DNA from: Sagittula marina
Lineage (GTDB): Bacteria; Pseudomonadota; Alphaproteobacteria; Rhodobacterales; Rhodobacteraceae
NCBI RefSeq assembly: GCF_014196795.1
Contig: NZ_JACIEJ010000004.1
Span: forward strand, 186,001-250,000
Direction: 5' to 3'
DNA: 64,000 nt
In this document: one piece after another, positions 49,061-59,080 of the stretch
Position numbering within the stretch: the stretch's first letter is position 1
Layout of the letters: each line of letters opens with the position of its first letter
The notes under the pieces: model-generated
The model's input: the letters and a program-made list of their open reading frames with translations, nothing else
The model's database searches: none
What the model was told of the DNA's origin: nothing
Made by a program: the position numbers and the translations under genes

Positions 49061-49160
49061 CACCTGCCCAAATCGTAGCTTTTTCCAAGCGGACGCTATA
49101 TCACGGTGGGTGACATGAATTGTCATAAATGTTTTGCAAACCCATAGGCATAAGCCGCTC

Positions 49161-51380
49161 ATGACCATCGCAGATTTCCTCAAAAGCCCGCTGTCGCCCG
49201 CCACCGAATTTCCGGATCTGAACCTGACCGGGCCGGGGCGCTTCTATAACCGTGAGCTCAGCTGGCTGGGCTTCAACTGGCGTGTGCTGGAGGAAGCCGA
49301 AAACCTCCGTGTGCCGCTCCTTGAACGGGTGCGCTTTCTGTCGATTTCTGCGGCGAACCTCGACGAGTTCTATACAGTCCGCGTGGCGGGTCTTCGGGAG
49401 CTTGCCCACAATGGCAACACCACACCGGCTGCCGATGGGCTGACCCCTGCAGAACAGCTGGTGCTGATCGACGAAGATGCACGCCGCCTGATGTCGGAAC
49501 AGCAGCGCGTTCTGGGCGTGCTGAAATCACGCATGGCGGAAACAGGCATTCACGTGGTCACGCGAGACGATCTCACGGAAGCGGACCGTGCGCATCTGAA
49601 CGAGGCATTCCTGAATCAGGTGTTCCCGGTTCTCTCGCCCTTGGCAATCGACCCGGCGCACCCCTTCCCCTTTATCGCGAACATGGGCTACTGCCTTGCC
49701 TTGCAGTTGGAGCGCAACCGCGACAAACGCCCGCTTCAGGCGCTGCTGCCGATCCCGGCGCAGATCGACCGCTTTATGCGGTTGCCCTCCGAGGAAGGGA
49801 CACACCGTCTGATCCTGCTCGAAGACGTGGTGCTTTTGCACATCAACTCGCTGTTTCCCGGCTATAAATCCAAGGATCATTTTGGCTTTCGCGTTCTGCG
49901 CGACAGCGATTTGGAAGTCGAGGAAGAGGCCGAAGATCTCGTGCGCGAATTTGAGGTCGCCCTGAAACGTCGTCGCCGTGGCGAAGTCGTCCGTCTCACC
50001 GTCTCTGCCGGGGCGCCCAAAAGCCTTCGCGATATCGTCATGCGTGAACTTCATGTTGACGCCGACGAAGTCATCGAACTCGAAGGGATGATCGGCGCCG
50101 CGGACACCAAGGAGCTGGTGATTGACGCGCGCCCTGATTTGATGTGGCCGGTCTTTACTCCGCGTGTGCCGGAGCGCGTACAAGACCACGACGGCAACAT
50201 GTTCGACGCGATCAAGCAAAAGGACATGCTGCTGCATCACCCCTACGAGACCTTTGACATGGTGGTGCGCTTCCTTAATCAGGCGGCTTTGGACCCCAAC
50301 GTGGTCGCGATCAAACAGACGCTGTATCGTACGTCCAAGAACTCCCCGATTGTCGAGGCATTGTGTGAAGCCGCCGAAGAAGGCAAATCCGTCACCGCAT
50401 TGGTGGAGCTGAAAGCGCGGTTTGATGAGGCAGCCAACATCCGCCAGTCACGGCGGCTGGAACGGTCCGGTGCGCATGTGGTCTACGGCTTTCTAGACTG
50501 GAAAACCCACGCCAAGATCAGTCAGGTGGTGCGCCGCGAGGGCGACAAGCTGGTGACCTACACCCATTGGGGCACCGGCAATTACCACCCGATCACGGCA
50601 AAGATCTACACCGACCTGTCCTTCTTTACATGTGATGCCGCGCTGGGGCGCGACGCGGCGAAGATCTTTAACTATCTCAGCGGCTACGCCATGCCAGAGG
50701 GGTTGGAGAACCTCTATATTTCGCCTCACTCCCTGAAGTCCGGCATGATCGAGATGATCGACAAGGAGATCGCCCACGCCAAGGCTGGCAAACCCGCGCA
50801 TATCTGGATCAAGATGAATTCTCTGATCGAGCCGGACATGATCGATGCGCTGTATCGCGCCAGCCAGGGCGGCGTGAAGGTCGACTGTGTCATTCGTGGC
50901 ATCTGTGGCCTGCGGCCGGGCATCAAGGGGCTTTCCGAGAACATACGCGTCAAGAGCATCATCGGCCGCTTTCTGGAACATTCGCGCATTGCCTGTTTTG
51001 GCAATGGTCACGGACTGCCGCATGGCAAGGCACGGGTCTTCATCTCCTCCGCAGACTGGATGGGGCGCAACCTGAACCGGCGCATCGAAACCGGTGTCGA
51101 AATCATGAATGCGACGGTCAAGGCCCAGATCGTCAGTCAGGTCATGGCCGCGAATCTGGCGGACACGGCACAAAGCTGGGTCATGGAACCCTCGGGCCAA
51201 TTCATGCGTCACCCGGTGCCGGAGGGCGAATTCGCCTTCAACTGCCACCGTTTCTTCATGGAGAACCCGTCTTTGTCGGGGCGCGGGTCGGCAGGTGCAA
51301 AAGATGTGCCGAAACTGACCCACACAAACGAGGAAATCCCTGTACCGACAAGCCGGGAAGAGCCGCAGACACGCGGCTGA
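49161..51380 (+). CDS. ppk1: Polyphosphate kinase 1
   Basis: The 739-residue enzyme makes polyphosphate from ATP. RFYNRELSWLGFNWRVLEEA opens the N domain, FPVLSPLAIDPAHPFPFI follows, and the catalytic core has IKQTLYRTSKNSPIVEAL, FDEAANIRQSRRLERSGAHV, and WKTHAKISQVVRREG with phospho-His450. SSADWMGRNLNRRIE belongs to the second PLD-like domain. The ATG at 49161 is chosen because the conserved N-terminus begins soon after it. A strong terminator follows, and then a flagellin array rather than ppx. Confidence 0.97.
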   Translation: MTIADFLKSPLSPATEFPDLNLTGPGRFYNRELSWLGFNWRVLEEAENLRVPLLERVRFLSISAANLDEFYTVRVAGLRELAHNGNTTPAADGLTPAEQLVLIDEDARRLMSEQQRVLGVLKSRMAETGIHVVTRDDLTEADRAHLNEAFLNQVFPVLSPLAIDPAHPFPFIANMGYCLALQLERNRDKRPLQALLPIPAQIDRFMRLPSEEGTHRLILLEDVVLLHINSLFPGYKSKDHFGFRVLRDSDLEVEEEAEDLVREFEVALKRRRRGEVVRLTVSAGAPKSLRDIVMRELHVDADEVIELEGMIGAADTKELVIDARPDLMWPVFTPRVPERVQDHDGNMFDAIKQKDMLLHHPYETFDMVVRFLNQAALDPNVVAIKQTLYRTSKNSPIVEALCEAAEEGKSVTALVELKARFDEAANIRQSRRLERSGAHVVYGFLDWKTHAKISQVVRREGDKLVTYTHWGTGNYHPITAKIYTDLSFFTCDAALGRDAAKIFNYLSGYAMPEGLENLYISPHSLKSGMIEMIDKEIAHAKAGKPAHIWIKMNSLIEPDMIDALYRASQGGVKVDCVIRGICGLRPGIKGLSENIRVKSIIGRFLEHSRIACFGNGHGLPHGKARVFISSADWMGRNLNRRIETGVEIMNATVKAQIVSQVMAANLADTAQSWVMEPSGQFMRHPVPEGEFAFNCHRFFMENPSLSGRGSAGAKDVPKLTHTNEEIPVPTSREEPQTRG

Positions 51381-51404
51381 TCCTTAATAAAATCACTTTA
51401 TAAC

Positions 51405-51437
51405 AAGGCGGTAACTTGAAACGTTACCGCCTTTTTC
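51405..51437 (+). terminator. Terminator of ppk1
   Basis: AGGCGGTAAC (51406-51415) pairs perfectly with GTTACCGCCT (51423-51432) and is followed by a T run. It closes the ppk1 transcript before the flagellin array. Confidence 0.95.
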
Positions 51438-51508
51438 ATGGTTTGGGCGCGGCTGTGGCAGCCTGCCCAATTCGTGCCGTGAAATGACCCCTTGAGGGCC
51501 GCAAAGTG

Positions 51509-51523
51509 TTAAACGCAGGTTAA
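51509..51523. promoter_or_regulatory. CtrA-type site upstream of the flagellin array
   Basis: TTAA-ACGCAGG-TTAA exactly matches TTAA-N7-TTAA. It lies 153 bases before the first flagellin ATG, leaving room for a promoter and the structured leader. CtrA controls flagellar genes in many alphaproteobacteria. Confidence 0.65.
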
Positions 51524-51595
51524 GCGCATAAGTGCAGTTTGCATCGTGCACAGACCAGTGGCGCGGACGGGTTCGAATGGAACGCGGTCCGTAAC

Positions 51596-51676
51596 GTCAG
51601 AAAGACGGTTCGAAAGTCGGGCGATCAGCCCGGCACACTCCGGCGCAAATGCGCCAAGAACCGAAAGGCGAAACTC
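51596..51676 (+). promoter_or_regulatory. Structured leader of flagellin gene 1
   Basis: The elements in order are: GTCAG (51596-51600), a hairpin CGGGC-GATCA-GCCCG (51618-51632), a nine-base spacer, and a hairpin GGCGCA-AA-TGCGCC (51642-51655) ending 21 bases before the ATG. The order and spacing match the leaders of flagellins 2 and 3 although many bases differ. The ribosome binding site is weak (AAAGG). Confidence 0.5.
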
Positions 51677-52918
51677 ATGTCGAGTATTCTTACCAACAAC
51701 GGCGCAACAGCTGCGCTTCAAACGCTCAAGAACATCAACAAGTCCATGGGCAACGTCCAAGAGCAGATTTCCACCGGCAAGCGTGTGAACTCCTCCAAGG
51801 ACAACGCCGCCGTATGGGCCATTTCCACCGCGATGGAATCCGACGTCGCAGGTTTCAAGAAAGTCTCCGAGTCGCTTTCTCTCGGTCAGGCCACCGTGTC
51901 CGTCGCCCGTCAGGGTGCTGAAACCGTTGCGGACCTGCTCACCCAAGTGAAGGAAAAGGTGGTCTCCGCTCAGGAAGAGAACGTTGACCGGGCCAAGATC
52001 CAGACGGACATTGCTGCTCTGCGCGATCAGATCACTGCCGTTGTTGGCGCCTCTCAGTTCAACGGCCAGTACATGCTCGAGAACACCGGCACCGCCGAAG
52101 ATTCCGGTGGTATCAACGTTCTGGCCTCCCTCGACCGTTCGTTCTCCGGCGTGTCCTCCTCCGACATTCGCGTGTCCAAGGAAGATCTGAGCCAAGGCGC
52201 AGCCACTGCAGGCTCCGTCTCGGTGGACGCATCGCTGGGCAACACGGTGGTCGCGGGCGAGTCCAACGACGTGGCGACCTTCGTCGAAGACACTGCAGGC
52301 GGCCTGACAACTGGCAATACCTACCAGTTCACATCTGGCGGCAACCTGGCCCTGAGCGAGGATGTGGCCTATGTGGCACGCGAAGGTGACACTCTGGAAG
52401 ACGTCACCAACGGCCTGGTAATGAAGCTGAACGAACAAGCGGCTGCCGATGGGTTGGACGTGACCTTCTCGCAAAGCGATACCGGCGTTGGTACGATCTC
52501 CATGACCAACAACACAGACGCCGACATTGCCGTGGCCGCCGGTGAATTCCAGCAAGCCGCGCTTGATGGGTCCGAAGACGACGGCGGCATTGGCGGTCGC
52601 CTCGAAGTGCTGGCATCCATGGACGTTTCGACACAGGCGGGTACAGACTCTGCTCTGGCAGTGATCGACGGTCTGATCGAAGTTGCCATCGACTCGGCAG
52701 CCGCCTTCGGCTCTTCCGAGATGCGCCTCGAAACTCAAGCCGACTTTGTGTCCGGCCTGACCGACGCTTTGAAATCCGGCATCGGCACTCTTGTCGACGC
52801 CGATATGGAAGAAACCTCCGCACGTCTGCAAGCGCTGCAGGTCCAGCAGCAGCTGGGCATTCAGGCGATGTCCATCGCCAATAGCGCGCCGCAGTCCCTG
52901 CTGGGTCTCTTCCGCTAA
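51677..52918 (+). CDS. Flagellin (copy 1)
   Basis: The 413-residue filament protein has the D0/D1 N-terminal region SSILTNNGATAALQTL ... ISTGKRVNSSKDNAAVWAIS, ending with AQEENVDRAKIQTDI, and the matching C-terminal D1/D0 helix DADMEETSARLQALQVQQQL ... SLLGLFR. The middle domain (about 150-320) is acidic, Gly/Thr/Ser-rich and Cys-free. An ATG at 51677 starts the conserved SSILTN; an upstream in-frame ATG is in the leader and would ruin the export N-terminus. No flaF, flbT or hook genes are nearby. Confidence 0.96.
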   Translation: MSSILTNNGATAALQTLKNINKSMGNVQEQISTGKRVNSSKDNAAVWAISTAMESDVAGFKKVSESLSLGQATVSVARQGAETVADLLTQVKEKVVSAQEENVDRAKIQTDIAALRDQITAVVGASQFNGQYMLENTGTAEDSGGINVLASLDRSFSGVSSSDIRVSKEDLSQGAATAGSVSVDASLGNTVVAGESNDVATFVEDTAGGLTTGNTYQFTSGGNLALSEDVAYVAREGDTLEDVTNGLVMKLNEQAAADGLDVTFSQSDTGVGTISMTNNTDADIAVAAGEFQQAALDGSEDDGGIGGRLEVLASMDVSTQAGTDSALAVIDGLIEVAIDSAAAFGSSEMRLETQADFVSGLTDALKSGIGTLVDADMEETSARLQALQVQQQLGIQAMSIANSAPQSLLGLFR

Positions 52919-52926
52919 CCCAATGA

Positions 52927-52992
52927 GGCGCCCCCGGGCGGCGTCTCCCTTGCGAGAAAAATTCCGCAAGATTGATGAACCCCGGGGGCGCC
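52927..52992 (+). repeat. Nested inverted repeats after flagellin 1
   Basis: GGCGCCCCCGGG (52927-52938) is perfectly complementary to CCCGGGGGCGCC (52981-52992). Inside, CTTGCG (52949-52954) pairs with CGCAAG (52965-52970). It begins eight bases after the stop. No T run follows the outer stem, so it may protect the 3' end or pause transcription rather than be a classical terminator. Confidence 0.65.
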
Positions 52993-53047
52993 CCTCTGCC
53001 CCACCCGATGTGGGACGGAGGAAACGGATCCTCTCGCGAACGCGGGC

Positions 53048-53153
53048 GGTTCGCAGGCCGATGAAGGACCTGCACGTGTCAGAACGACGCTTTCGAAGCC
53101 GTGTATGCGGCACTCACCCGGCGTAAAAACGCCAAACTAAGAAAGCGACCAAA
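53048..53153 (+). promoter_or_regulatory. Structured leader of flagellin gene 2
   Basis: Elements in order: GGTTCGCAGGCC (53048-53059); GCAGG/CCTGC arms (53053-53057 and 53069-53073); a 28-base block identical to leader 3 (53067-53094); hairpin GCTT-TCG-AAGC (53089-53099); hairpin GCCG/CGGC (53098-53101 and 53108-53111), which shares two bases with the previous stem so the two exclude each other; hairpin GGCGT-AAAA-ACGCC (53120-53133), ending 20 bases before the ATG. No classic ribosome binding site is seen (AAGAAAGCGACCAAA). Confidence 0.6.
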
Positions 53154-54407
53154 ATGTCCAGTATTCTTACAAATCCGGGCGCAACATCTGCGCTGCAAAC
53201 CTTGAAGATGGTCAATCGTGACTTGGGCAGCACCCAGAACATGATTTCGACAGGTAAAAAGGTCGACAACGCAAAGAGCAACGCCGCTGTCTGGGCGATT
53301 TCCACTGCCATGGAATCAGATGTGGCCGGTTTCAAGAAGATCTCTGAATCTCTTTCTCTCGGTCAGGCAACTATCGACGTGGCACGAAAAGGTGCAGAGA
53401 CAGTCACCGACCTTCTCACCCAGGTAAAAGAAAAGGTTGTCGCGGCTCAGGAAGAGAACGTCGACCGCGCCAAGATCCAGACGGACATCGTCGCACTCCG
53501 CGATCAGGTGTCTGCCGTTGTCAACGCATCGCAGTTCAACGGCCAGTATATGCTGGACCACACCAGCTCGACAGATAACTCCGGCTCAATCAACGTACTG
53601 GCGTCCATTGACCGTGCGTCGAACGGCATCGTGACCTCCACCGACATCAACGTGTCCAAGGAAGACCTCGGAACCGGCACATCCGCTGCGGGTACAGTCT
53701 CCGTCGACCGTGGTACCGCTGGCTCCGTGGCCGCAGGCGCAACGGCAACCGTTGTGACCTTCGCAAACAACACTTCTGGGGATGACACAGGTGCAATTGG
53801 CGCTGGCCAGACGTACCAGTTCACCACAGGTGGTGCGTCCGGGCTTACGGCGGATGTTGCATACGTAGCGCGCGAAGGCGACGATCTGGGAGATATCACC
53901 GCCGGTCTGGTCATCAAGCTGAATAAACAAGCCAGCGAAGACGGTTTGACCATCAGCTTCTCGCAAGGCACGACCGCTGGTACGATCGACATGACAAACG
54001 ATGGCACTGCAGCCATTGCTGTTGTCGCAGGTGACTTCCAGCAGTCCGCGCTCGACTCGACCGAGAACAACGGCACCATCGGTGGCCGCCTCGAAGAGCT
54101 CGCAAATCTCGATGTGACCACCCAATCCGGTGCGGACTCCGCGCTGGCAGTCATCGACGGTCTGATCGACATTGCAATCGACTCCGCAGCGGCATTTGGC
54201 TCATCTCAGATGCGTATCGAAAGCCAATCCGACTTTGTGTCCGGTCTGACCGACGCGCTGAAGTCAGGCATCGGTACCCTTGTGGATGCGGACATGGAAG
54301 AGACATCGGCCAAGCTGCAGGCACTTCAGGTTCAACAGCAGTTGGCGGTTCAGGCCCTGTCCATCGCGAACCAGGCGCCGCAGTCTCTGCTCTCGCTCTT
54401 CCGCTAA
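53154..54407 (+). CDS. Flagellin (copy 2)
   Basis: The 417-residue paralogue has SSILTNPGATSALQTLKMV, ISTGKKVDNAKSNAAVWAIS and the C-terminal DADMEETSAKLQALQVQQQL ... SLLSLFR. The N-terminal 150 and last 75 residues are nearly the same as copy 3; the middle (for example GTGTSAAGTVSVDRGTAGS and TYQFTTGGASGLTADVAYV) differs from copies 1 and 3. Its ATG follows the shared leader. It would be exported by the flagellar apparatus and form part of the filament. Confidence 0.96.
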   Translation: MSSILTNPGATSALQTLKMVNRDLGSTQNMISTGKKVDNAKSNAAVWAISTAMESDVAGFKKISESLSLGQATIDVARKGAETVTDLLTQVKEKVVAAQEENVDRAKIQTDIVALRDQVSAVVNASQFNGQYMLDHTSSTDNSGSINVLASIDRASNGIVTSTDINVSKEDLGTGTSAAGTVSVDRGTAGSVAAGATATVVTFANNTSGDDTGAIGAGQTYQFTTGGASGLTADVAYVAREGDDLGDITAGLVIKLNKQASEDGLTISFSQGTTAGTIDMTNDGTAAIAVVAGDFQQSALDSTENNGTIGGRLEELANLDVTTQSGADSALAVIDGLIDIAIDSAAAFGSSQMRIESQSDFVSGLTDALKSGIGTLVDADMEETSAKLQALQVQQQLAVQALSIANQAPQSLLSLFR

Positions 54408-54420
54408 TATTCTGAAGCAA

Positions 54421-54477
54421 CCTTCGGACCGGGCATTACTGAATGAGGAACTCATTCGATGTGACCACGACCGAAGG
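54421..54477 (+). repeat. Nested inverted repeats after flagellin 2
   Basis: CCTTCGG (54421-54427) pairs with CCGAAGG (54471-54477), and inside it GAATGAG (54441-54447) pairs with CTCATTC (54451-54457). The outer-plus-inner layout copies that after flagellin 1, with unrelated sequence. Confidence 0.55.
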
Positions 54478-54531
54478 CTCCTCCTCGCCTCGAATGAGGC
54501 GGGGATCCCCATCCGGCCCGTAAGGGCGGTT

Positions 54532-54641
54532 GGTTCGCAGGCCAATGCGCGACCTGCACGTGTCAGAACGACGCTTTCCGAAGCCGCAATTGCGGCGTGA
54601 ACCCCCGGCGTAAAAACGCCAAAGCATAGAAAGCGACCAAA
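54532..54641 (+). promoter_or_regulatory. Structured leader of flagellin gene 3
   Basis: Same order as leader 2: GGTTCGCAGGCC (54532-54543); GCAGG/CCTGC arms with the same 11-base loop; the identical 28-base block (54551-54578); hairpin GCTT-TCCG-AAGC (54573-54584); palindrome GCCGCAATTGCGGC (54583-54596) overlapping it by two bases; hairpin GGCGT-AAAA-ACGCC (54607-54620), ending 21 bases before the ATG. The palindrome keeps pairing although its bases differ from leader 2. Confidence 0.6.
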
Positions 54642-55883
54642 ATGTCCAGCATTCTCACCAACACCGGCGCAATGACCGCACTCCAGTCCCTGAAAATGGT
54701 CAACCGTGACCTTGGCAGCACTCAGAACATGATCTCCACCGGAAAACGCGTGGACAATGCCAAGAGCAACGCTGCTGTCTGGGCGATTTCGACCGCCATG
54801 GAATCTGATGTCGCCGGTTTCAAGAAGATTTCTGAATCTCTGTCTCTTGGTCAGGCAACCATCGACGTGGCCCGCAAAGGGGCGGAAACGGTCACCGACC
54901 TGCTCACGCAAGTCAAAGAAAAGGTCATCGCAGCGCAGGAAGAGAACGTCGACCGCGCCAAGATCCAGACGGACATCGTCGCACTCCGTGATCAGGTGTC
55001 TGCCGTTGTCAACGCATCGCAATTCAACGGCCAGTATATGCTGGACCATCAGGACACCACAGCAGACTCTGGTTCCATCAATATTCTGGCCTCGATCGAC
55101 CGCTCGTCCAACGGCATCGTGACCTCCACCGACATCAACGTATCCAAGCAGGATCTTAGCACCAAGGCCTTGACTGCCGGGTCAGTCTCTGTCGATTCAA
55201 CAACAACAGGGGGCGTGGCAGATGGTGCGACGTCAACCGTCGCGGCCTTTGTCGAGGACACCGCAGGCGGCTTGACGGCAGGCAATACGTATCAGTTCAC
55301 CAGCGGCGGCGGCATCGCGCTTACAGAAGACGTGGCCTACGTTGCTCGCGAAGGCGACACGCTGGAAGATGTGACTGCCGGCCTTGTTCTGAAAATGAAC
55401 GCGCAAGCGGCTGAGGATGGCATCGATGTTTCCTTCGCTCAAACCAGCACAGCTGGCGAAATCCAGATGACCAACAACACCGGTGCAACGATCACTGTTG
55501 CTGCTGCCGAATTCCAACAGGCGGCCTTGGACGGATCTGAGGACGATGGTGATGTCGGTGGACGCTTGGACTACCTGAACGATATCGACGTGACTTCGCA
55601 AGCTGGTGCAGATGCCGCGCTGGCCGCCATTGATGGCCTGATCGATATCGCCATTGACTCGGCTGCCGCCTTTGGTTCCTCCCAGATGCGACTGGAAACA
55701 CAGTCTGACTTCGTATCAGGCCTGACAGACGCGCTGAAATCCGGGATCGGCACACTTGTGGACGCCGATATGGAAGAAACCTCCGCCAAATTGCAGGCCC
55801 TTCAGGTCCAGCAGCAGCTTGCAGTTCAGGCACTTTCCATCGCGAACCAGGCGCCGCAGTCGCTGCTGTCGCTCTTCCGCTAA
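54642..55883 (+). CDS. Flagellin (copy 3, mosaic)
   Basis: The 413-residue flagellin matches copy 2 at its N-terminus (LKMVNRDLGSTQNMISTG, VDNAKSNAAVWAIS) and over its last 75 residues (DADMEETSAKLQALQVQQQL, SIANQAPQSLLSLFR). Its middle instead follows copy 1: FVEDTAGGLTAGNTYQFTSG and EFQQAALDGSEDDGDVGGRL are close to the copy 1 versions and unlike copy 2. This suggests gene conversion within the array. Confidence 0.96.
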   Translation: MSSILTNTGAMTALQSLKMVNRDLGSTQNMISTGKRVDNAKSNAAVWAISTAMESDVAGFKKISESLSLGQATIDVARKGAETVTDLLTQVKEKVIAAQEENVDRAKIQTDIVALRDQVSAVVNASQFNGQYMLDHQDTTADSGSINILASIDRSSNGIVTSTDINVSKQDLSTKALTAGSVSVDSTTTGGVADGATSTVAAFVEDTAGGLTAGNTYQFTSGGGIALTEDVAYVAREGDTLEDVTAGLVLKMNAQAAEDGIDVSFAQTSTAGEIQMTNNTGATITVAAAEFQQAALDGSEDDGDVGGRLDYLNDIDVTSQAGADAALAAIDGLIDIAIDSAAAFGSSQMRLETQSDFVSGLTDALKSGIGTLVDADMEETSAKLQALQVQQQLAVQALSIANQAPQSLLSLFR

Positions 55884-55933
55884 CGCAGAGGGGACGCCCC
55901 TGAGGGACGTCCAGTTTATTACGCAAAACCAAA

Positions 55934-55962
55934 GTGGCCCGCATCCTCAGCGGGCCATTTTT
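55934..55962 (+). terminator. Terminator after flagellin 3
   Basis: TGGCCCGC (55935-55942) pairs with GCGGGCCA (55950-55957), followed by five T. It separates the first three flagellins from the fourth. Confidence 0.9.
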
Positions 55963-56142
55963 AATGAGTAAGTACCTCACTTGGTTACAAACCTTAGCGT
56001 CAGGTTTACCTCTATCCTCTATCGTGACGAGGCACTTACCCGAAGTGGCGCGAGACGGCCGTCAGCCAACCCGCATAAGCAGAAGCCCCCCACGGCCAAA
56101 AGCCAGTGAGACGGGTGTCCGACAACAAGGGTTTGTGTGCAT

Positions 56143-57444
56143 ATGTCCAGCATTCTAACAAATTCCGGCGCGATGACAGCGCTGCGCACCTTGAAGGCAA
56201 TCAATCGGCAGCTGTCCGACACGAGGGAGATGATCTCCACCGGGAAACGCATCAACTCTGCGAAACACAACCCTGCCGTCTGGGCAATCGCCAAGACGAT
56301 GGAATCTGACGTGGCTGGGTTCGCACGTATCAGGGACAGCCTGAATCTTGGTCAGTCCACTGTTGCCGTGGCCCGGAAGGGTGCAGAGACTGTGACCGAC
56401 CTTCTCACGCAAATGAAGGAGAAAATCATTGCGGCGCAGGAGGAAAATGTTGATCGCGCCAAAATCCAGACCGACATCGAGGCGCTCAAGCAGCAGCTCC
56501 GCAGTACTGTGGGCGCGTCTCAGTTCAACGGCTTAAATCTTTTAAACAATCGGGAGCGCCCCGCCGGCAGCGGAGATATCAGCATTCTCGCCTCTCTCGA
56601 CCGTTCGTCGAACGGCAGGGTACGTGCATCTGACATTGATGTCTGGAAACAAGATCTGAGCATGGAGATCTCGCAGATCGGTGGGGGCCTGTCGGCAGAA
56701 GCGATCGCCACGAACGACATTGCGGGCAATGGCGACGGCACGACCTTCGCCATAGGTGGGGCGGCAACGCCAAACACCGCCACAACGGCTTTCGGCACCG
56801 GCTCAAGTGACCGGCTCGCGGCGGGAGACGCATTCGCCATACAGATTTCCGCCACATCGGGAGATGCGCCCGCAAACACCACAGCCGCGCGTGAAATTCG
56901 CTACGTCGCACGCGACGGCGACACCATGGCGGATGTAACGCGCGGTTTGGCACTGTCCTTCAACCAATATGTCGTCGGCAATATGGGGCAGACCGCCGCC
57001 GGGTCGATCCAGGCATCCTTCAGCGGAAACGAACTGACCATCACGGGAGCCACGGGCGCGGGAAATGATTTTTCCATCCAGATCGACAAATTTGCCGCTG
57101 ATGCCACGACCACCATCGGTGGAGGACTGGAATATGTGGACAGTATCGACGTCACAACACAAAAGGGCGGCGATGCTGCGCTGGCCGCCATCGACGGACT
57201 GCTGAGCACTTCAATCGACGCGGCTGCGGCTTTTGGTTCCGCGGAGATGCGTCTGGAAACACAGCACGATTTCATCTCCAGCCTCAGCAGTTCCCTGAAA
57301 TCGGGGATCGGCACTCTGATCGATGCAAACATGGAGGAAGCTGCGGCCCAGCTTCAGGCGCTACAGGTGCAGCAGCAGCTCTCCGTTATTTCCTTGTCGA
57401 TCGCGAACCAAGCCCCGCAATACTTGCTCCGGCTGTTCCAGTAA
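56143..57444 (+). CDS. Flagellin (copy 4, divergent)
   Basis: The 433-residue protein keeps the terminal regions (SSILTNSGAMTALRTLKAIN, ISTGKRINSAKHNPAVWAIA, ENVDRAKIQTDIEALKQQL; C-terminal EAAAQLQALQVQQQLSVISL) but is the most divergent copy. KHNPAVW replaces KxNAAVW, the middle is longer (about 150-360) and different, and it ends LFQ instead of LFR. It lacks the structured leader and GGCG hairpin of copies 1-3 and has its own upstream region behind a terminator, so it is probably expressed separately. The ATG at 56143 starts the conserved SSILTN. Confidence 0.94.
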   Translation: MSSILTNSGAMTALRTLKAINRQLSDTREMISTGKRINSAKHNPAVWAIAKTMESDVAGFARIRDSLNLGQSTVAVARKGAETVTDLLTQMKEKIIAAQEENVDRAKIQTDIEALKQQLRSTVGASQFNGLNLLNNRERPAGSGDISILASLDRSSNGRVRASDIDVWKQDLSMEISQIGGGLSAEAIATNDIAGNGDGTTFAIGGAATPNTATTAFGTGSSDRLAAGDAFAIQISATSGDAPANTTAAREIRYVARDGDTMADVTRGLALSFNQYVVGNMGQTAAGSIQASFSGNELTITGATGAGNDFSIQIDKFAADATTTIGGGLEYVDSIDVTTQKGGDAALAAIDGLLSTSIDAAAAFGSAEMRLETQHDFISSLSSSLKSGIGTLIDANMEEAAAQLQALQVQQQLSVISLSIANQAPQYLLRLFQ

Positions 57445-57541
57445 ATTCCCCGGCACGAAAGTTAACGCTTTGGTAGGGGCGGACATTTCTTGACCGCCCT
57501 GCCCCACCCACATAGGAGAGCGGTAACGGGGAGTGCGCGAC

Positions 57542-59080
57542 ATGAACAGTCACGACGACAGCCATGGTCATTGGGATGCGTTTGGGCGTCCATTGTTCGA
57601 CGATCCGCAGGCGCGCGCGCTGAGCCGCGTCGGTGTGGTGGACATGGGGTCCAACTCGGTCCGCATGGTCGTCTTCGACGGCGCGGCCCGCAGTCCGGCG
57701 TATTTCTTTAACGAAAAGATCATGTGCGGCCTCGGCGAAGGGATGAACCAGACAGGGCGACTGAACCCCGAGGGACGGGAACGCGCCATGGTCGCCATGC
57801 GCCGGTTCAAACTGCTGGCCGAAGGCATGGAATTGTCGGACCTCTCGGTTGTGGCCACCGCCGCCATGCGCGACGCTGAAGATGGTCGAGAATTCCGCGC
57901 CAGTGTGGAGGCCGAGACCGGCCTGAAAATCCATGTCATCGACGGCGCCGAGGAGGCACGACTGTCGGCCCAGGGTGTGCTTTTGGGCTGGCCTGGCTCT
58001 TACGGTCTCGTCTGCGATATTGGTGGATCGTCTATGGAGCTGGCCGAGATTGGAGAAGGTCAGGTTGGCCGTCGTATGACCTCGGCGCTTGGTCCCTATA
58101 AGCTGATGGATATTTCCGGCGGGCGCAAAGCGCGCGAGAAGCACATCAAGCACGAGCTGAAAGCCCTTGCGGGGTATATGGGCACCCAGCGCGATCGACT
58201 GTTCCTTGTGGGCGGCAGTTGGCGCGCCATTGCCCGGATTGACATGCTGCGCCGGGACTACCCGCTGCATGTGCTGCATGAATATCGGATGAACGCCGAG
58301 AACGTTCGTGAGACGATCGAATTTCTCGAAAACGAAGATCACGATGCGGTGCGAAAAGCAGCAGGTGTATCCTCCACCCGGATGGCGCTGGTCCCGTTCG
58401 CAGCCGAAGTTCTGGAAGGCGTGGTAAACTGTTTCGAGCCCTCCGATATTGCAATTTCCAGCTATGGCATCCGTGAAGGGTTGCTTTATGAACAGATGCC
58501 TCAAATGCTGCGGGATCGTGATCCTCTGATCGAGGCATGCCGCTTTGCCGAAGCAAAGGATGCCCGCCTGCCGGGCTTTGGTCGCCAGCTTTATCATTTC
58601 GTTTTGCCACTGTTTCCCGATGCATCGGACGCGCGGAGACGGCTGATCCACGCAGCCTGCCGGCTGCATGATGTGTCTTGGCGCGCGCACCCGGATTACC
58701 GGGCAGAGACCTGTTTCGACAATGCCACCCGTGCCAACCTGGGCGGGCTAAAGCACTGGGAGCGCGTCTATCTTGGACTGGCACTGTTGCACCGCTACAA
58801 AAACAAGCGTGAAGGCACCCGGTTCGAGGACATGTACTCCCTGCTCGACGACGCCCATCAGCAAGAGGCGGAGGTGCTGGGAAAGGCCATGCGCTTTGGC
58901 GCAATGCTCTGGACACTGGAAGCGAGCGCCGGACATGCGCGATTGTCCTGGGACGGCACACGGCTTGCGCTGACCTTGGACCCGGACATGATGGACCTTT
59001 ACGGCGAGGTCGCCAGATCCCGATTCAAGTCGTTGGCGCAGGCGCTGGGGGCCGAAGATTTTGGCGTCGAGGCAGGCTGA
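57542..59080 (+). CDS. ppx: Exopolyphosphatase (Ppx/GppA family)
   Basis: The 512-residue ASKHA-fold phosphatase has VGVVDMGSNSVRMVVFDG (phosphate 1 loop), VVATAAMRDAEDGREF, GLVCDIGGSSMELAEIG (phosphate 2) and LVGGSWRAIARIDM, followed by a helical C-terminal HD-like domain (AACRLHDVSWRAHPDYR). It hydrolyses polyphosphate or (p)ppGpp. GGGGAG lies eight bases before the ATG at 57542. In related genomes as I recall them, ppx usually follows ppk1 directly; here four flagellin genes lie between. Confidence 0.95.
   Translation: MNSHDDSHGHWDAFGRPLFDDPQARALSRVGVVDMGSNSVRMVVFDGAARSPAYFFNEKIMCGLGEGMNQTGRLNPEGRERAMVAMRRFKLLAEGMELSDLSVVATAAMRDAEDGREFRASVEAETGLKIHVIDGAEEARLSAQGVLLGWPGSYGLVCDIGGSSMELAEIGEGQVGRRMTSALGPYKLMDISGGRKAREKHIKHELKALAGYMGTQRDRLFLVGGSWRAIARIDMLRRDYPLHVLHEYRMNAENVRETIEFLENEDHDAVRKAAGVSSTRMALVPFAAEVLEGVVNCFEPSDIAISSYGIREGLLYEQMPQMLRDRDPLIEACRFAEAKDARLPGFGRQLYHFVLPLFPDASDARRRLIHAACRLHDVSWRAHPDYRAETCFDNATRANLGGLKHWERVYLGLALLHRYKNKREGTRFEDMYSLLDDAHQQEAEVLGKAMRFGAMLWTLEASAGHARLSWDGTRLALTLDPDMMDLYGEVARSRFKSLAQALGAEDFGVEAG

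Follow-up and report, generated by a model that had tools for sequence, protein, structure and literature searches.

A conserved hairpin leader ahead of flagellin genes in Rhodobacteraceae, with FlbT as a plausible binding partner

Flagellin genes 1 to 3 in a 64,000-nucleotide stretch of the Sagittula marina genome (contig NZ_JACIEJ010000004.1, positions 186,001 to 250,000; hereafter the window) are each preceded by a structured leader with four hairpins, named here P0, AGAA, P2 and P3. This set of hairpins is preserved by covariation at flagellin starts. Sequence comparisons make it probable that the leader acts in cis, as an RNA within the 5′ untranslated region (5′ UTR) of flagellin mRNAs, and lets a protein, most likely FlbT, hold back flagellin synthesis until the flagellum can export the product. 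The hairpin with the near invariant AGAA loop recurs in the class, is rare elsewhere and provides a concrete site to mutate.

Covariation in the flagellin leaders

The initial annotation of the window had noted that the stems of the leaders are kept while their bases change, and had taken this to suggest selection on RNA shape. A scan of named genomes yielded 79 distinct loci, whose flagellins are 46–66% identical to gene 2 of the window. From these and the S. marina loci, 93 distinct leaders were cut out of 104 tblastn rows; the dropped rows were duplicates, had a tblastn start after residue 4, or lay fewer than 100 nucleotides (nt) from the end of the locus. A first covariance model, built from 18 leaders and searched against both strands of 82 sources (1,067,912 bases), gave 81 matches at E up to 1, with 79 at flagellin starts and two away from flagellin. 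In the matches 87.4% of the cells pair, compared with 73.9% in shuffled and 28–48% in slid controls.

The refined alignment, A5, holds 67 leaders, in which 89.9% of the cells pair and the slid controls reach at most 52.2%. Both-sided changes are present in 12 of its 14 pairs (109 such cells versus 30 in shuffles), G-U pairs occur in all three helices, and its covariation score of 0.378, against 0.145 shuffled, was reached by none of 500 shuffles. Because the alignment had been fitted to the structure, pairing was recounted in the 61 leaders outside the seed, where 81.1% of cells are paired in the AGAA stem, 91.5% in P2 and 84.2% in P3. The loop of these 61 leaders reads A in 60, G in 60, A in 56 (with five gaps) and A in 61, closed by a pair with C in 60 and G in 61. 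An alignment-free test for stems of at least five pairs was positive for 44 of 84 leaders in the P2 region (shuffled mean 9.5) and for 44 of 84 in the P3 region (9.2), while P0 has at least four Watson-Crick pairs in 57 of 70 segments from relatives (shuffled mean 15). AGAA is found 55–98 nt upstream of the start codon in 84 of the 93 leaders and is absent from −98 to −55 in the other nine. Selection on RNA shape is thus strongly supported by the covariation in A5 together with the 61 non-seed leaders, and the condition that the initial annotation had named as refuting it, a loss of the conserved pairing in related genomes, was not borne out in the genomes searched.

No family of Rfam release 15 reached its gathering threshold on the window or on the loci of six relatives, and none of the below-threshold matches on the searched sequences falls on a leader. 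Searches of the open-licence literature (flagellin RNA motifs, structured leaders, FlbT with UTR or stem-loop, FlbT with CsrA) found no description of such an element in the parts of the texts covered, which is not proof of absence. The covariance model defines an RNA family absent from Rfam, a putative regulatory leader of flagellin genes whose AGAA hairpin is newly defined here and recurs across the class.

The distribution of the leader was followed in an order sample of 244 genomes, each at least 90% complete and all labelled Rhodobacteraceae. The first model (E 0.001) has a match in 107 genomes and a second model (E 0.01) in 149; flagellin is found in 211 and FlbT in 205, and the second model finds the leader in 135 of the 211 flagellin-bearing genomes. 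Among the 150 matches listed, 86 adjoin a flagellin (84 a listed one, two more on reading), 45 are followed by flbT in the same orientation at a distance of 1.3–2.0 kb, 13 sit on deletion scars of the flagellin locus where the genome yields no flagellin match, and the remaining six (in G138, G050, G204, G036, G132 and G202) were not placed in any class. First-model matches on G107:C1, G135:C2 and G210:C1 (E 3e-4 to 7e-4) are not upstream of flagellin, and G237 has a first-model match in a genome without a flagellin match. In the S. marina genome all four matches at E below 1e-5 belong to flagellin leaders; two further matches are weak, with E of 0.06 and 0.94. The predicted structured RNA stands directly before flagellin start codons, and flbT is encoded close by in S. 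marina and at the 45 listed matches that it follows, with G038 and the genomes with deletion scars as exceptions.

Leader architecture in the window

The leader elements and flagellin genes of the window given here are all on the forward (+) strand. In leader 1, P0 (GCGGAC...GTCCGT, after TGGCGC) spans 51563..51592, the AGAA hairpin CGTC-AGAAA-GACG 51594..51607 (GTCAG from 51596), P2 51616..51634 and P3 (GGCGCAAATGCGCC) 51642..51655. The corresponding hairpins of leader 2 are P0 at 53053..53073, GTC-AGAAC-GAC at 53078..53088 (GTCAG from 53078), P2 at 53098..53111 and P3 (GGCGTAAAAACGCC) at 53120..53133, and those of leader 3 are P0 at 54537..54557, GTC-AGAAC-GAC at 54562..54572 (GTCAG from 54562), P2 (GCCGCAATTGCGGC) at 54583..54596 and P3 (GGCGTAAAAACGCC) at 54607..54620. 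The ordered elements first described, namely GTCAG, the middle hairpin P2 and the last hairpin P3, are therefore all in place, and P3 does end 21, 20 and 21 nt before the start codons at 51677, 53154 and 54642. What had been overlooked is that GTCAG is the opening of a hairpin, GTC-AGAAN-GAC, which is the most conserved part of the leader; P0 had likewise been missed, as had a closing helix, P1, formed in these three leaders between the segment that follows GTCAG and the one that precedes the ATG.

P1 pairs CGGTTC (51606-51611) with GAACCG (51658-51663) in leader 1 (51606..51663; pair probability 0.66), CGCTTTC (53088-53094) with GAAAGCG (53141-53147) in leader 2 (53088..53147), and CGCTTTC (54572-54578) with GAAAGCG (54629-54635) in leader 3 (54572..54635). 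In leader 2 it lies over the ribosome-binding position; with pair probabilities of 0.99 in leader 2 and 0.65 in leader 3, it puts the ribosome-binding region of both into a helix. A three-way junction in which P1 encloses P2 and P3 is the minimum-energy form in leaders 1 and 2 and the centroid in leader 3. Folded singly and compared with dinucleotide shuffles, leader 1 has a z of −3.0 (none of 200 shuffles as good), leader 2 of −2.5 (two of 200) and leader 3, only weakly better than its shuffles, of −1.8 (11 of 200). The strong evidence for structure is comparative.

P1 was also considered as a general feature of the leader and was rejected as such, since at least six Watson-Crick pairs are found in seven of 84 leaders against a shuffled mean of 5.85. 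By this six-pair test it is present in the three window leaders and one leader of Sagittula salina; in a second S. salina leader it was seen by reading only, with a G-U pair. Tentatively, P1 would be clade-specific rather than general.

The claim that no good ribosome-binding site is present stands for leaders 2 and 3 but not for leader 1, which has AAAGG. Across the 93 leaders, the last 22 nt contain AAGGA in 55 and any of AGGA, GGAG, AAGGG or AAAGG in 83.

Upstream of leader 1, at 51509..51523 (+), a TTAA-N7-TTAA site of CtrA type lies 168 nt from the start codon of flagellin 1. It suggests a putative promoter 5′ of all the leader 1 hairpins; sites of this type are found upstream of four of 92 leaders. 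Scans of 51380-56200 for sigma-70 promoters and terminators gave no more matches than in shuffles. Between flagellin genes 1 and 2, a GC-rich inverted repeat with 28-nt arms that are 75% complementary lies at 52927-52992, with no T run after it.

The genes that follow the three leaders are flagellin 1 (51677..52918), flagellin 2 (53154..54407) and flagellin 3 (54642..55883). Flagellin 4 (56143..57444), 55% identical to gene 2, has no covariance-model match upstream of its ATG at 56143, and its leader is without a comparable fold (z 0.46). The array of four consecutive genes is flanked by genes at 49134-51380 and 57533-59080, which from their translations are presumably ppk (polyphosphate kinase) and ppx (exopolyphosphatase), and an array in S. 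salina is likewise located between ppk and ppx (L012 1761-9832). In both Sagittula genomes this array is on a different contig from the flbT-adjacent flagellin.

The S. marina assembly (G000; 5.04 Mb, 45 contigs) holds further flagellins, one at 15903 on contig C1 and a distant one on C9. On C1, flbT lies about 450 nt downstream of the leader-bearing flagellin. The C9 flagellin is split into two pieces, one at each contig end, and a second flbT is found on C9 beside the far end; a circular replicon would therefore place flbT after this flagellin. This flagellin has a GTG start and a hairpin, TTTTCGTC-AGAAA-GACGAAAG, of eight pairs including one G-U, whose loop begins 41 nt upstream of the start.

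The AGAA hairpin, FlbT and alternative explanations

The AGAA hairpin is also found beyond the family. A class-wide flagellin search of 192 genomes, 48 of them with a match, provided 68 leaders outside Rhodobacteraceae from 26 families, and in all leaders loops were counted by their first four letters wherever a stem of three or more Watson-Crick pairs closed them (256 loops). AGAA ranks first of the 256 in Rhodobacteraceae, where 57 of 93 leaders have it, against a shuffled mean of 1.8 and a maximum of 11 for any loop in 100 shuffles. It also leads in the other families, with 24 of 68 leaders in 15 of the 26 families (shuffled mean 1.5; maximum for any loop 9). In controls it occurs upstream of 25 of 520 open reading frames (ORFs) of at least 250 amino acids from the named loci, which are mechanically called ORFs and not curated genes, before two of 25 flagellins of FlbT-less genomes and, in the order sample, before none of ten flagellins of enterobacterial-like type. 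The runner-up in both leader sets is AAAA, the P3 loop.

The position of the hairpin is not fixed. In the other families the loop lies 13–25 nt before the ATG in 11 of the 24 strict hairpins (nine families) and elsewhere in 13; the 3′ arm of those 11 overlies the ribosome-binding position, as in TCC-AGAAT-GGAG. In Rhodobacteraceae the hairpin is located about 76 nt before the ATG. Leaders of other families (L143, L172, L174, L190 and others) have one or two hairpins with A-rich loops, for example GC-AAAA-CGC, before the AGAA element; these resemble P3, and their order differs from that in the window.

An action of FlbT on flagellin leaders has been credited to it since the primary paper, by Anderson and Gober, in 2000. 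In the parts of the later literature covered here, FlbT acts on the Caulobacter flagellin 5′ UTR by a mechanism listed as 'Unresolved' (PMC4347634, PMC3930126), and a 2015 review table has a '/' for FlbT where other rows name the recognised sequence (PMC4347634). An account of Caulobacter, also covered in part, has FlbT pair with the flagellin FljJ as co-repressor, with relief on FljJ secretion (PMC7591256). FlbT is a plausible binder of the present leader because flbT lies beside a leader-bearing flagellin in the S. marina genome and because the AGAA hairpin marks this type of flagellin class-wide.

In the mechanism that we propose, FlbT would recognise the AGAA loop, and flagellin synthesis would wait for a basal body and hook able to export the protein. 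Where the hairpin sits on the ribosome-binding position, as in many other families, bound FlbT would block initiation directly. In Rhodobacteraceae the loop is far from the start codon, so that blocking would have to be indirect: FlbT would not occlude the ribosome-binding site but would repress by way of the P2/P3 leader or of mRNA decay. In Sagittula, P1 would cover or abut that site and strengthen the repression. A flagellin that has no leader, for instance gene 4, could evade this control and act as a co-repressor, like FljJ in Caulobacter; the leader is also not seen at the third and last flagellin of the S. salina array (L210 around 3519), and by analogy gene 4 and this S. salina flagellin are candidates for an FljJ-like role. 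More broadly, the AGAA hairpin may be the FlbT recognition element across Alphaproteobacteria, a counterpart of the GGA loop of CsrA, whose placement evolved from family to family, at the ribosome-binding site in many and about 50 nt further upstream in the four-hairpin leader described here, so that one regulator would act by two mechanical routes; we advance this generalization tentatively and with slightly more doubt than confidence.

Several observations weigh against a role for FlbT at the AGAA hairpin. In Rhodobacteraceae the hairpin is distant from the ribosome-binding site. Counted by genome, the link to FlbT is weak: outside the family the hairpin is found in 23 of 73 leaders from FlbT-bearing genomes versus five of 35 from FlbT-less ones (p 0.04, ignoring relatedness). 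In the class set the strict hairpin is missing from 42 of the 63 leaders of FlbT-bearing genomes, among them all eight covered from G305, and present in three of the five leaders of FlbT-less genomes. FlbT also occurs in the source genomes of five of the ten enterobacterial-like controls. FlbT and this flagellin type are co-inherited, so that the correlation between FlbT and the hairpin is confounded by descent. G038 has four leader matches and six flagellins and no FlbT match, which reflects either an assembly gap or use of the leader without FlbT. In sources covered in part, a Phaeobacter inhibens (P. inhibens) flbT mutant remains motile, which fits a repressor and shows no effect on a leader (PMC11974857), and Brucella FlbT is reported to be an activator (PMC4347634, PMC8781033).

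Structure prediction adds to these points, since the FlbT models gave no convincing match to an RNA-binding fold, and Foldseek none at E 0.001 or better. The full model has a five-strand N-terminal part and a helical bundle, with a mean predicted local distance difference test score (pLDDT) of 83.7 that is lower in the N-terminal part; the N-terminal model, best of five with mean pLDDT of 89.2, 69.5, 64.2, 54.0 and 49.4, is hence uncertain. In further structural comparisons the matches listed included, for the helical part, NiSOD (Z up to 8.7) and a FliS complex (Z 7.0), and, for the N-terminal part, TRAP (Z 3.4). All of these are in the range of common arrangements, and CsrA was not among the matches listed. 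The strand order of the model resembles what we take to be that of CsrA. At the level of sequence profiles, a kinship of FlbT with CsrA was rejected on an hhalign probability of 0.3% and on an N-terminal profile score of 11.2, no better than column shuffles (median 9.7 and maximum 13.2 in 30). A CsrA profile search (PF02599) had no match in the S. marina genome, and CsrA is absent from 15 of 16 sampled alphaproteobacteria.

Other explanations of the leader were weighed against this evidence. The stacked hairpins P0, AGAA, P2 and P3 occupy the region upstream of the ATG, and P2 and P3 are kept by shape, as might be expected if the hairpins alone set mRNA stability or formed a ribosome standby platform, protecting an abundant messenger with no dedicated regulator. 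Such a function would not call for a fixed loop sequence. AGAA and its closing pair, however, hardly vary and turn up again in other families, and we regard this explanation as unlikely. We give a little less credence to a different partner, such as a small RNA, Hfq or another protein, reading the leader in place of FlbT. In favor of one are the leaders of G038, found without an FlbT match, and the AAAA loops, which are enriched too (23 of 93 and 20 of 68 leaders, versus 14 of the 520 ORF upstream regions and one of the 25 flagellins of FlbT-less genomes). However, AGAA is frequent before FlbT-type flagellins and absent before the ten enterobacterial-like ones of the same order, and FlbT is the flagellin-leader binder named for Alphaproteobacteria in the parts of the literature covered.

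The initial annotation had also proposed a two-state RNA switch, in which a GCTT...AAGC hairpin and the GCCG hairpin (P2) exclude each other. The alternative hairpin does exist in the sequence of leaders 2 and 3, but its pair probability is 0.00 in both and it costs 7.2 and 5.4 kcal/mol, respectively, relative to the P1 form; leader 1 is without it. As the predicted energies of the exclusive forms are not comparable, the switch was rejected as very improbable. Finally, inverted repeats acting as DNA operators for a transcription factor, an idea prompted by some palindromic arms and the CtrA-type site near leader 1, deserve hardly any credence, because each of the three helices has G-U in place of some Watson-Crick pairs and the conserved loop belongs to a single strand.

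Deletion scars and relation to known systems

In the order sample, 15 genomes that have no flagellin match have lost the flagellar cluster by deletion and still carry the leader at the scar (loci L095-L106 and L253-L255). In nine (G002, G074, G090, G102, G111, G123, G170, G215 and G222) the leader, up to approximately the ATG, runs head-on into motB at ...HHGGAWKVA, around motB codon 30. In five (G055, G068, G136, G151 and G176) flagellin codon 46 is joined to an inverted flgE, the junction being a short TCTG-containing stretch that is similar in both genes. In G131 the leader is joined to a frame that is presumably FliP-like. The leader/motB and codon 46/flgE junctions recur in several genera, and in the intact G037 the junction points are about 26–28 kb apart. 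This pattern resembles what a deletion hot spot, or the spread of an empty allele, would leave. A role in trans for the leaders of flagellin-less genomes was considered and rejected: in the nine leader/motB scars what is left of motB still reads as an open N-terminal frame, so that these losses seem recent and selection on the leader need not be assumed. A 2025 study describes sporadic independent losses of the flagellar cluster, with no description of the junctions in the part covered (PMC11974857).

Three known systems invite comparison. The flg-Rhizobiales RNA motif is also an alphaproteobacterial leader of flagellar genes; it differs in its position before basal-body rod genes, and no Rfam family reached threshold on the searched sequences. 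CsrA systems place GGA in a loop and release the messenger on export. They are similar in outline to the present one, since in Campylobacter and Bacillus a protein represses flagellin mRNA through GGA motifs, according to the part of the source covered (PMC4894983). Here, by contrast, the conserved loop is AGAA, the genome has no CsrA match, and FlbT has no profile similarity to CsrA. The closest parallel is the FlbT-bound flagellin 5′ UTR of Caulobacter crescentus, which, in the parts of the sources covered, shares an alphaproteobacterial flagellin leader, flbT and assembly-coupled post-transcriptional control (PMC3930126, PMC4347634); the Caulobacter flagellins are RpoN-dependent, a point of difference (PMC3930126). 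The present leaders differ further in that a specific hairpin family is defined in them.

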